DNA of 64,000 bases from Chthonomonas sp. (GCA_016788585.1 JAEURP010000011.1:1-64000); one strand, 5' to 3'. Shown: positions 22,480 to 37,961, counted from the first letter of the stretch. Translations and numbers: made by a program. Notes: generated by a model from the letters alone, not told the origin.

Positions 22480-22524
22480 TGGTGGACCGTGTAGGGCTCG
22501 AACCTACGACCCGCTGATTAAGAG
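22480..22524. repeat. Left attachment-site repeat (tRNA-Lys 3' fragment)
   Basis: 45 bases identical to 37892-37936, covering the CCA end, acceptor, T arm and anticodon-arm 3' side of tRNA-Lys on the minus strand. The continuation (ACGCCGGG) no longer matches a tRNA, so it is a fragment and not a functional gene. Confidence 0.92.
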
Positions 22525-22778
22525 ACGCCGGGAATAGGCATCCAGGCACTCTCCTGTATAGGCTCCAGGTTCGAATCATCGATCCTATTACTCTCCTCTA
22601 TTGCCGTGTGCTCTGGGTAAAAGCCACCACGGGTAGCCACCATGCAGCTGACTAGTTTAGTGCGCACACGACAGCAAGTTTCGCCTTTTTCAAGAATCTT
22701 CGCGGAAATCCCGTGTTTTGGGATGCTTCCCCCTTTCAGTTACCGGACCACCAAATCGAGTGGTTCAGGAAACTGAAC
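22525..22778. other. Left end of the element, no gene seen
   Basis: 254 bases between the left repeat and the first element gene. No tRNA, terminator or convincing frame was found. Integrase arm sites could lie here but none was recognised. Confidence 0.5.
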
Positions 22779-23336
22779 ATGATCGAATACTTAACCTCTT
22801 ACAGCGCCATTCGCCAAGGACGAAAGGACGCTTCCGCCAACTTTCCCGCTGCAAATGAACCCGTATCTGGCTATCTTGGAAAGCTCGAAGCAACGGCAGA
22901 GGCTCATCTGCAGGATGAGGCGCAAGCCTTCCAAAAGAAAAGCCGCCGCCCCCTGCGCCGCCTCCAAGTGTACACGGAGCGCGAAGCCCGTGAGCAGAAG
23001 AAGCTCAATGAGGTGGAAGCCTTCTGGGACGAACGTGGCAAGAAGCCGCCATTCCCTGCGTGGCTTCACTACACCTTCCTGGCCCTCCTCTTCGCAGGCG
23101 ACTTTGCCCTGAACGAGGTCGCATTCCGGAAGTTTGAAGGGCACCCGCTCCTCAATATCCTCGCGACCCTGGCCGTCTGCACAAGCGTAACAGTTCTTGC
23201 CCACTATGTGGGCAAGACGTTGAAGGAGCCTCGCCGCAATAACTTTCAAAAACTCTTTGTAGGTGTGGCCATCCTTGCTTGTCTTGGAGGTGCTCTAAAC
23301 CCTAGCCCTTGCGAACTCTCGCAGGGGCACTCTTAG
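22779..23336 (+). CDS. Membrane protein at the left end of the element, hypothetical
   Basis: 185 aa from ATG 22779, chosen because AGGAA lies nine bases upstream; a GTG 22 codons earlier has no such site. Residues 1 to about 100 are charged and helical with a coiled-coil look (RPLRRLQVYTEREAREQKKL). Then come two or three hydrophobic segments (WLHYTFLALLFAGDFAL, LLNILATLAVCTSVTVLAHYVG, LFVGVAILACLGGAL). The C-terminus stops abruptly after the third segment with a short polar tail, so truncation or a frameshift is possible. No family is recognised; a membrane role in element transfer is speculation. Confidence 0.65.
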   Translation: MIEYLTSYSAIRQGRKDASANFPAANEPVSGYLGKLEATAEAHLQDEAQAFQKKSRRPLRRLQVYTEREAREQKKLNEVEAFWDERGKKPPFPAWLHYTFLALLFAGDFALNEVAFRKFEGHPLLNILATLAVCTSVTVLAHYVGKTLKEPRRNNFQKLFVGVAILACLGGALNPSPCELSQGHS

Positions 23337-23595
23337 AACCATAACGGTTTTGCCTGATGAATTCTTAGAAATTTGGCGAAGGAACGATTTGAGCAAGAGA
23401 CTCACACTTTGACGATCAAAGGGTTGAATGGTGAGGACAGCTTTACGGATTGCTGAGTTGAACCACGCCATTTTACTCAAGCAAACAGCTTTTCCCAGGC
23501 ACACGTGAAGGTACTTCTCACCCCCGCCACAGTGTGGCTCCAGATAAAGTCAAGGATGCAATTAGAAAGGCGAGGGAGTCAGCTATGGTTCCTCT

Positions 23596-23883
23596 TCACT
23601 TATCCTGCATAGGCAGAAAGTCCAAGTTCCAGGGGTCCAAGTCCTTTGGAAAGCTCGCTAGTTCGAAAAAAGTTGAATCCACGAGCAAAAGGGGGTCCTC
23701 CAAACTCTTGAAGTTTCTAGCATTCCACGCTGTATTGAGATGGTGGTAAAGGTGCGCAATGGAGAGATAGAGATCAGTGTCACTTACTTCCTCACTTTGA
23801 ATCCTATCAATCAGCCGCTGCAAATCTTCGGATAACTCCCGCAAGTGAAACCTCACCACTTCAGACTCCGCCCATTCGTTCAT
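23596..23883 (-). CDS. Small acidic protein after the RHS gene, candidate immunity protein
   Basis: 95 aa, ATG 23883, overlapping the RHS stop by four bases (ATGA), so translation is coupled. It is acidic and helical (SEVVRFHLRELSEDLQRLIDRI, LYLSIAHLYHHLNTAWNARN) with no signal peptide or membrane segment, hence cytoplasmic. A small acidic gene immediately after the variable tip of an RHS protein is the classic position of a cognate immunity gene in polymorphic toxin systems (established for RHS/CdiA-type loci). The assignment here rests on position and composition only; no immunity family is recognised. Confidence 0.65.
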   Translation of the reverse strand: MNEWAESEVVRFHLRELSEDLQRLIDRIQSEEVSDTDLYLSIAHLYHHLNTAWNARNFKSLEDPLLLVDSTFFELASFPKDLDPWNLDFLPMQDK

Positions 23884-35870: not shown

Positions 35871-36406
35871 TTATTTGCAAACACTGCCGAGAGTCTTGGC
35901 CAACTGACGCTCAGTTCTGTGGTTCTTGCGGTGGTTCGTTCAAAGGGAGGCGATGCCGCAAGGGTCACCTGAGCCCCAAGCGAGCAAGCGCCTGCGTCAC
36001 GTGCGGCTCGCATGACTTGACCGACTTTGCTGATAGCCTGCATCTTGGCACGCGGGCGCGAATCCTGGCCTGTATAGTCATGCTCGTCGCCTTGCGTATC
36101 TTGTCCGTGCATGCATGGAGCGTGCTCCAAACGACTGATTGGCTTCTTGGCCTCGTGCTCCCATTCCGTCCCCTTGCCACTGCCTTACAGATTGTATCGG
36201 TGGTTATCGTCTGGCTGACTTTCCGGAGCCTACTTGTTCTCTTTGCACGTGAGGCCGACGGGCGATTCAAGGCAGTGTCGGACGTTTGGAGGCCATTCGT
36301 CAAGGCTGGCTTCAGGGCTCTCTACTATGCCGCTAGGTACGGGGGGACAATGGTTAAGCGAGTTGTGGTAGGTAGTGAGCAGCCCAAGTCTGGGAGGAAA
36401 CGCTAA
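35867..36406 (+). CDS. Double zinc-ribbon membrane protein
   Basis: 179 aa, overlapping the previous stop by four bases. N-terminal zinc ribbons: CKHC, CGSC, a Cys-Lys-Gly-His patch and CVTC in residues 4-47. Two membrane segments follow (ILACIVMLVALRILSVHAWSV and LATALQIVSVVIVWLTF), then a basic tail. It presumably sits in the inner membrane with the ribbons in the cytoplasm. It belongs to the element's core module; the exact role is unknown. Confidence 0.78.
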   Translation: MIICKHCRESWPTDAQFCGSCGGSFKGRRCRKGHLSPKRASACVTCGSHDLTDFADSLHLGTRARILACIVMLVALRILSVHAWSVLQTTDWLLGLVLPFRPLATALQIVSVVIVWLTFRSLLVLFAREADGRFKAVSDVWRPFVKAGFRALYYAARYGGTMVKRVVVGSEQPKSGRKR

Positions 36407-36408
36407 TC

Positions 36409-36621
36409 ATGGCTCGGTCTAAGAAAGTGCCAATTGAGAGTCGTGGTAGTCTTACCCTGAATGAGGCCATGATTTACGTTGGCCTTGGCTACTCCAAAGC
36501 CCGTAAACTCGTCGCTGATGGCATCTGGGCCGCTTACCGGAATGGGCGAGAAATCCGCGTACTAAAGCGCTCCCTCGATGAGTGGATGGAACTGCAAGTT
36601 GCCGAGAGCTTTCTCGGCTAA
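36409..36621 (+). CDS. Excisionase-like helix-turn-helix protein
   Basis: 70 aa, AGGAAA upstream. The MerR/excisionase-type fold reads LTLNEAMIYVGLGYSKARKLVADG, then IWAAYRNGREIRVLKRSLDEWM, which is the usual one-helix-turn-helix plus wing with a DWM-like end. It lies eight bases before the integrase. It probably sets the direction of recombination at the att sites. Confidence 0.85.
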   Translation: MARSKKVPIESRGSLTLNEAMIYVGLGYSKARKLVADGIWAAYRNGREIRVLKRSLDEWMELQVAESFLG

Positions 36622-36629
36622 GGACTAAT

Positions 36630-37961
36630 ATGGCAAACAAGAGACAATCCGGTGAAGGCACATTTTCCCGTCAGGGCGAGTTTTACGTCTGGACGCGACG
36701 AGTTGGTGAACGTCGCTACGTTGTCAAGCGCAAGGACTACACGGCGTTTCGCAACGAAGTAGCCAAGCGACAAGCACAAATCAAGGACCTCAGCACGTCA
36801 AAGCCACCACAAGACACCACGGTATTGAGCTACGTGCCATCGTGGATTGAGCGGTACGCCACTCCACCCAAACTCGCCAAAGCCACGCATCGAAGCTACC
36901 TAGGAGCATTCAAGAATCAAATAGAGCCATTCTTGGGAACTCGGAAGCTAAGCAAACTCAGCACAGCCGACGTTCAAGGTTGGATCAACCAACTGGGCCG
37001 CGATGGGTTAGGCGTCCGTACAACGCTCATAGCTTTCGTTGTTCTCAAGAGGGCTCTCGCAGTTGCTCGTACTGAGGGATTCATGACCCGCAATCCTTGC
37101 GAAGGATGTGTCCTGCCGCGCCAGCCTGTCCGAACTATGCGTATCCTGTCGCCGGACGAATCTGAAGCACTGATACGAGAGGCATTCCGCCGTCCTCACA
37201 TCCACCGACGCGAGTCGCTTGCCCATCGCCAAGCGACTCGCTATCGCCACCTTTTCCGCTTTGCCCTGATATCAGGCCTGAGGATCGGCGAAATCCTAGC
37301 ACTCCAATGGCATCACTGCGACTTTGCAAGCGGCATCGTTCAGATAGAACAGCAGCTTGAATGGGACAAAGAAGAAGGCTGGAGCCTCGTTCCGCCAAAG
37401 ACACGGTCTAGCATCCGCACTATTGTCCTGGAAGCATCTGGAGTCAGGACGCTTGCTCAGCAACTGGCTATGGTGAATCGGGAACGAAAGCGCATCGAGG
37501 ATTACGAAGACTTCGATCTTGTGTTTCCAACCCTGCGCGGCACACCTTCGCACCCACGCAATGTTCAGCGCCAGCTAAGTGCGCTTCTCTCCAAAGCTGA
37601 ACTCGATCACTGTAGCCTCCATGACCTAAGACGAACGTGTCTGACCAACCTGGCGAATCGAGGACTGCCCATGCACCAACTCAAAGCTTATGCTGGCCAC
37701 ACATCGGTAACCACCACGGCAAAGTACTATGTGGGCGTTAGCCTCGAAGCCATGAAGGCTGCGATAGATGCGTTGAAGCCACTTTCCGAGACAGTGAAGC
37801 GGATTACAGTCAAAGCCACCAAGAAAGCCACCAAAAACGGCAAACTAGGCAGACTGGGCAACAAAGGGTCCTGGCCCCAGGTTCAAAAAGGTGGTGGACC
37901 GTGTAGGGCTCGAACCTACGACCCGCTGATTAAGAGTCAGCTGCTCTACCAACTGAGCTAA
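36630..37961 (+). CDS. Tyrosine integrase
   Basis: 443 aa from ATG 36630 with AAGGA upstream. N-terminal arm-type domain, SAM-like core-binding domain (LSKLSTADVQGWINQLGRDGLG), then the catalytic domain. Active-site residues: Arg218 (SGLRIGE), Lys257 (PPKTRSS), His331 and Arg334 (HDLRR), His357 (GHTSVTTTA) and Tyr366 or Tyr367 (AKYYVG), all present. The last residues (GPCRARTYDPLIKS and on) are translated from the att core and the antisense of tRNA-Lys and are unlikely to be functional. It drives integration at tRNA-Lys. Confidence 0.95.
   Translation: MANKRQSGEGTFSRQGEFYVWTRRVGERRYVVKRKDYTAFRNEVAKRQAQIKDLSTSKPPQDTTVLSYVPSWIERYATPPKLAKATHRSYLGAFKNQIEPFLGTRKLSKLSTADVQGWINQLGRDGLGVRTTLIAFVVLKRALAVARTEGFMTRNPCEGCVLPRQPVRTMRILSPDESEALIREAFRRPHIHRRESLAHRQATRYRHLFRFALISGLRIGEILALQWHHCDFASGIVQIEQQLEWDKEEGWSLVPPKTRSSIRTIVLEASGVRTLAQQLAMVNRERKRIEDYEDFDLVFPTLRGTPSHPRNVQRQLSALLSKAELDHCSLHDLRRTCLTNLANRGLPMHQLKAYAGHTSVTTTAKYYVGVSLEAMKAAIDALKPLSETVKRITVKATKKATKNGKLGRLGNKGSWPQVQKGGGPCRARTYDPLIKSQLLYQLS
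37892..37936. repeat. Right attachment-site repeat within tRNA-Lys
   Basis: 45 bases identical to 22480-22524; covers the 3' half of the intact tRNA-Lys. The crossover should lie within it. Confidence 0.92.

Follow-up and report, generated by a model that had tools for sequence, protein, structure and literature searches.

How can a segment move between genomes when it encodes an integrase and a DNA-transfer ATPase and no secretion channel? This question is raised by an element at positions 22480-37936 of a 64,000-nucleotide stretch of Chthonomonas sp. (GCA_016788585.1 JAEURP010000011.1:1-64000), the whole of which was analysed and is called the window below. The element is probably an integrative and mobilizable element (IME) in the style of plasmid CloDF13, in which a MOBC-type relaxase and a self-encoded coupling protein would dock on the channel of a helper in trans. 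The observations behind this reading are the attachment (att) sites, the gene content, the modelled folds, the conserved putative catalytic residues, the recurrence of the genes and the absence of VirB4 from the genome as assembled. An original prediction, made from the sequence alone, had offered mobilization in trans or an unusual transfer route. The former is the better of the two, and the latter was kept in consideration, given how few of the phylum's sampled genomes have VirB4. The rest of that prediction stood (an integrative element, its ends, its integrase and the missing channel), except for its remark on the relaxase.

Ends and core genes of the element

The window, from an uncultured member of the Fimbriimonadaceae, contains a mobile element of 15.4 kb inserted in a tRNA-Lys gene, with exact ends. 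Its borders and the genes proposed to act in integration and transfer were as follows:

22480-22524, minus strand: attL, the 45-bp 3' fragment of tRNA-Lys (tRNA positions 32-76), identical to 37892-37936
33704-35089, plus strand: VirD4/TrwB-type coupling ATPase by domains and model, no predicted transmembrane segment (PF10412, PF12696 and PF02534 over cut-off; TrwB-like model)
34983-35870, plus strand: Replic_Relax protein, putative MOBC-type relaxase (PF13814, 72.8 bits; start more likely ATG 35067)
35867-36406, plus strand: double zinc-ribbon protein with two predicted membrane segments, proposed coupling-protein anchor (PF12773, hydropathy, recurrence)
36582-37961, plus strand: tyrosine integrase, 3' end overlapping the tRNA and att core (PF00589, E=3e-23; likely start ATG 36630)
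37892-37936, minus strand: attR core, the 3' part of the intact tRNA-Lys (exact repeat)
37892-37967, minus strand: intact tRNA-Lys(CTT), the target gene (ARAGORN)

The exact 45-bp direct repeat, with a start-to-start distance of 15,412 bp, extends from the anticodon loop through the CCA end of the tRNA, and simple arithmetic puts the chance of such a match in 64 kb at about 1e-18. The repeats, the intact tRNA on the right and the fragment on the left had been predicted correctly to the base, as had the integrase at the tRNA border. The 3' end of the integrase open reading frame (ORF) lies inside the intact tRNA-Lys gene; its C-terminal residues are ...PLIKSQLLYQLS in the integrated state and would be ...PLIKRRRE when read over the joined ends of the circle. 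The integrase and the att repeats flank the segment, as in an IME, and all core ORFs are intact. The base composition of the element is not distinct from that of its surroundings. Just inside attL, a short stretch (22540-22600; GGTTCGAATC) resembles a decayed tRNA T-arm.

Candidate relaxase and coupling protein

The predicted trio of ATPase, replication-relaxation and zinc-ribbon genes forms one tight, Pfam-supported cluster. The accompanying statement that no relaxase could be recognised was wrong, because PMC5357655 (Table 1) places the Replic_Relax family PF13814 among the MOBC relaxases and because the protein combines the fold with an invariant acidic site. Its PF13814 score far exceeded the cut-off (25.3 bits), and its AlphaFold model (predicted local distance difference test, pLDDT, 92.6) showed a winged helix at the N-terminus and a nuclease-like alpha/beta domain. 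D156, E173 and D175 were invariant in 32 of 32 relatives, with P155 nearly so, and were taken as a putative active site of the PD-(D/E)xK restriction-endonuclease-like type. MOBC relaxases are restriction-endonuclease-like, and mutations have been used to test TraX of pAD1 (PMC12857230, which cites Francia et al. 2013). In pTEF1, a pAD1-like plasmid typed as MOBC, the protein at the relaxase position matched PF13814 at 28.5 bits, and the Replic_Relax profile strongly matched proteins of Embleya and Bacillus conjugation clusters (E about 1e-20). Judged by sequence and modelled fold, Replic_Relax belongs to the MOBC-type relaxases. For one of its relatives (L021; G011:C1:2318754-2319395), the first match crossed an internal TGA, and the ORF-based copy was open.

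The ATPase matched TrwB_AAD_bind, TraG-D_C and T4SS-DNA_transf over curated cut-offs, and its model (pLDDT 88.6) matched TrwB along the whole chain (TM score 0.57-0.66 over about 410-430 columns); archaeal HerA also scored against this model. It has the nucleotide-binding and all-alpha domains of VirD4 proteins in a TrwB-like arrangement and lacks their N-terminal transmembrane domain; the model has an N-terminal helix at residues 4-29. Membrane segments were likewise predicted to be absent from 37 of 44 profile matches and were mostly internal or borderline in the rest. Its domains and model identify the ATPase as a coupling protein of the VirD4/TrwB type that lacks the usual membrane anchor. 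Hydropathy predicts two membrane segments in the zinc-ribbon protein, and such segments were also predicted in each of 16 relatives examined beyond the first set. As the ATPase is anchorless and the zinc-ribbon protein possesses membrane segments, the latter is proposed as the anchor that probably holds the ATPase at the membrane, by analogy with pIP501, where a small membrane protein, TraI, has been suggested as the anchor of the coupling protein TraJ (cited in PMC12857230). Identities as defence systems were rejected for the ATPase (mad8, HerA) and for the kinase of the cargo (PD-T4-6), with only weak superfamily matches in each case.

In the mechanism that these genes suggest, the tyrosine integrase would recombine the 45-bp core and excise the element as a circle; as the recombination would take place at the 3' core of tRNA-Lys, the tRNA would stay intact. 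The relaxase would then nick the excised circle at an origin of transfer (oriT), and the coupling ATPase, probably kept at the membrane by the zinc-ribbon protein, would dock the DNA, once nicked, on the type IV channel of another element. The remaining genes are cargo: a VWA-PP2C-kinase triad, plus an RHS protein together with its associated genes.

Recurrence of the pair in Armatimonadota

Replic_Relax homologues were present in 14 of the 41 nearest genomes, and PF13814 was over cut-off in 46 of 291 Armatimonadota genomes. In 36 loci, a coupling-protein gene was directly followed by a Replic_Relax gene; the distance between the two ranged from -410 to +55 bp, mostly as small overlaps. These comprise one IMG/VR contig and 35 loci labelled as Armatimonadota, Abditibacteriota and, once, Paceibacterota, every one of the loci fetched from these phyla having this order; one of the 35 is labelled as an archaeon, yet is identical to a contig of a genome of the Fimbriimonadaceae family. 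Of the 36 loci, 15 lay within 6 kb of a tRNA; a related tyrosine integrase was present within 5 kb in 12 and a serine recombinase within 5 kb in four. Two sub-types were distinguished: in one, as in the window, the relaxase is followed by the zinc-ribbon membrane protein, whereas the other has a small soluble protein, accompanied in several loci by an excisionase-like helix-turn-helix gene. In the search for the same trio in other elements, suggested in the original prediction, the pair recurred in all these loci and the zinc-ribbon protein in some of them: roughly half of the family lacks it, and in about half of the loci a membrane protein with two segments is encoded next to the ATPase. In two elements at tRNA-Glu (L156, 4578-6167; L168, 12716-14275), a large serine recombinase replaces the tyrosine integrase next to the same coupling-protein/relaxase pair.

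Outside these loci, plasmids of Embleya and Bacillus have the same ordered pair within full conjugation clusters. In pTEF1, a TraG-D_C ATPase precedes a PF13814 protein in the same order, with one small hypothetical gene between them.

The element belongs to a widespread and apparently undescribed family in Armatimonadota. Gene mobility in this phylum itself appears undescribed, the papers matched in a limited literature collection dealing, by title and abstract, with other subjects. The family corrects the idea of Replic_Relax elements devoid of a relaxase, and yields a group of coupling proteins that have no anchor of their own but a separate candidate for one.

The missing channel and alternative explanations

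As had been predicted, no secretion channel was found: the larger ORFs of the element contained no mating-pair-formation genes by Pfam, and the VirB4 model TIGR00929 gave no match in the genome as assembled, where PF19044 gave one sub-threshold match (E=8.9e-4). An integrative and conjugative element (ICE), which has a type IV secretion system (T4SS) with VirB4, was rejected on this basis. Across the phylum, VirB4 was over cut-off in two of the 291 genomes (G021 and G163), in a scan that scored five candidates per genome with a model that misses some divergent proteins (Bacillus subtilis was absent from its matching controls). Among the 46 genomes with PF13814, 45 had no VirB4 over cut-off, including single-contig genomes, a count limited by the loss of plasmids from metagenome bins; the exception was G021. 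This genome was rejected as the source of a helper T4SS, the stretches read containing no relaxase/coupling pair of the element's family and the bin having 4% contamination. Two near-duplicate contigs of G021 (C7 and C10; L185 and L186) carry VirB4 and other T4SS-like genes and were possibly binned from another organism. The supplier of the channel is consequently a concrete question, as relaxase/coupling elements recur where VirB4 is nearly absent.

Several observations weigh against mobilization in trans by a MOBC-type relaxase. With VirB4 this scarce across the phylum, a helper is hard to name, and no oriT was recognised, a repeat search of the intergenic stretches giving only weak short repeats. 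In a Foldseek search of the PDB, the Replic_Relax model had no match with E below 0.001; the weak matches, all with E>1e-3, included the nicking endonuclease BspD6I, Bse634I and XisH. The putative site reads ExD, not ExK, and the similarity to the pAD1-type protein of pTEF1 is weak (profile E 0.0026; hhalign E 0.0085). PF13814-like folds are also present in phages, Bacillus phages included, and the family is therefore not exclusive to conjugation.

The lack of VirB4 in the element's own genome, together with the full clusters that carry the same pair in other phyla, would also be compatible with a degraded ICE whose relaxase and coupling genes outlived the lost channel genes and which is no longer mobile. 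This explanation is unlikely, as the core genes are all intact and the two 45-bp att copies identical, and as decay would not give a channel-less module that recurs across orders, in 36 loci, and keeps its putative catalytic residues.

A self-sufficient export device, in which the anchorless ATPase, the relaxase and the zinc-ribbon membrane protein would together transfer DNA in Armatimonadota by a minimal route of their own, would account for the near absence of VirB4 from PF13814 genomes, single-contig ones among them, and for the two-segment membrane protein beside an anchorless ATPase in about half of the loci. However, the other half of the family has the small soluble protein in its place, helper plasmids are often lost from metagenome bins, and divergent VirB4 proteins may escape the models. 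No MOBC system is known to work without a channel, and such a device seems quite improbable.

Finally, a phage-related satellite island, with Replic_Relax as a replication initiator, the ATPase as a packaging motor and transfer in the capsid of a helper phage, is very improbable: the Bacillus phage folds, the PHROGs label 'replication initiation by nicking', a weak match of the ATPase to terminase and one related pair on the IMG/VR contig (L176) speak for it, whereas the TraG-D_C and TrwB domains over cut-off, the TrwB-like fold, the near homologues inside conjugation clusters and the lack of any capsid or packaging gene seen in the element speak against it.

The tRNA-Lys site in relatives

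The proposal of an IME at tRNA-Lys was also followed at the corresponding site of related genomes. On the right-hand flank, many of the family's genera have a dehydrogenase, an ABC ATPase, an LTXX-like gene and a GNAT gene next to tRNA-Lys, in the conserved order SDH-ABC-LTXX-GNAT-tRNA, with SnoaL additionally in part of them; in G002, of the same genus, tRNA-Lys and SnoaL are about 200 kb apart. The left flank is not conserved among relatives, so the evidence for an empty site is one-sided. Within this limit, the search for empty sites recommended in the original prediction was successful, unoccupied sites being found in genomes of other genera with only the right flank conserved. Profiles of the element's proteins detected no integrase, coupling protein or Replic_Relax in the stretches fetched around tRNA-Lys of G002, G013, G014, G015, G016, G017, G019, G020, G022 and G024, and no two-sided empty site or joined attB was found among the tRNA-Lys loci of relatives.

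Other relatives had an occupied site. The same tRNA-Lys carries an element with a closely related integrase in G011 and G010 (70% and 58%), and a different element in the same-genus genome G001, where a 45-bp fragment lies 22,538 bp from the tRNA. In G004, one contig with the left-flank CoA-binding gene ends exactly at the 45-bp fragment and another starts at the tRNA, and the site therefore seems occupied.

Att repeats of this kind, expected for related elements, also occur at tRNA-Ala, with 45-bp fragments at 9.8 and 19.0 kb in G014 and at 10.1 kb in G011. Several copies or pieces of the 3' 45-bp fragment of tRNA-Ala(CGC) were seen in G014 (L030, L074) and G011 (L039, L073), at intervals of about 9-10 kb or shorter, which suggests that elements have accreted in tandem at a single tRNA.

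Cargo genes

Between attL and the coupling ATPase, the element carries the following genes:

22713-23336, plus strand: 207-aa ORF with one predicted membrane segment; 55% identical relative in the G011 tRNA-Lys element; no family in Pfam or PHROG
23596-23883, minus strand: 95-aa ORF directly downstream of the RHS gene, in a possible immunity-gene position; no Pfam match
23880-28322, minus strand: RHS-repeat protein of 1480 aa, RHS core domain and variable C-terminal tip, cargo (PF20148, PF05593, TIGR03696)
28319-29257, minus strand: C39-type peptidase with TPR region, cargo (PF03412, E=5e-9)
29258-30793, minus strand: 511-aa protein, cargo; no family found in Pfam or PHROG
30954-31943, minus strand: Ser/Thr protein kinase of the VWA-PP2C-kinase triad, cargo (PF00069)
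31870-32736, minus strand: PP2C phosphatase of the same triad, cargo (PF13672, E=3e-37)
32733-33419, minus strand: VWA (TerY-like) protein of the triad, cargo (PF00092, PF13519)

The adjacent VWA, PP2C and kinase genes (30954-33419) correspond to a TerY-P triad at the Pfam domain level, a TerY-P-like triad carried as mobile-element cargo in Armatimonadota. The C39 peptidase and the 511-aa orphan adjoin the RHS gene, and the C-terminal tip of the RHS protein with the adjacent 95-aa ORF (23596-28322) forms a candidate toxin-immunity pair. RHS proteins were also found near the coupling/relaxase pair in G011, G009, G015, G004 and G017; as the element's own genome has further RHS proteins outside it, no enrichment near the pair is claimed.

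Comparison with known systems

The TerY-P triad of other genomic islands (e.g. PMC4978471) has the same three protein types in one operon, a likeness drawn at the Pfam domain level. For the transfer genes, the pAD1/pTEF1 transfer region, with its TraX-type MOBC relaxase, shares the order of a coupling ATPase and then a PF13814 protein, but is a full conjugative system whose relaxase is only weakly similar to that of the element. A possible functional parallel to the zinc-ribbon protein is offered by TraJ/TraI of pIP501, in which a coupling ATPase would be recruited to the membrane by a small two-helix partner. TraI is not known to have a zinc ribbon.

Streptococcal IMEs of class 8 (Rel_PF13814/MobC and VirD4; PMC5357655) are likewise integrated and combine a PF13814 relaxase with a VirD4-type protein and no T4SS, but have serine integrases and Bacillota hosts, whereas the element has a tyrosine integrase in tRNA-Lys, with serine-recombinase relatives at tRNA-Glu. 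CloDF13, a mobilizable MOBC plasmid whose MobC relaxase acts with its own coupling protein MobB (PMC7431656), shares with the element a MOBC-type relaxase and a self-encoded VirD4-type coupling protein in the absence of a channel, and is mobilised by a helper T4SS. Profile comparison with the CloDF13 record, which has no mobB/mobC annotation, gave only weak matches. Unlike the element, CloDF13 is a non-integrated plasmid, and MobB has a large, essential transmembrane domain (PMC7431656), whereas the element's ATPase has none and is accompanied by a separate zinc-ribbon membrane protein. The element is probably an IME variant of an established type, that of a MOBC-type relaxase with its own coupling protein.

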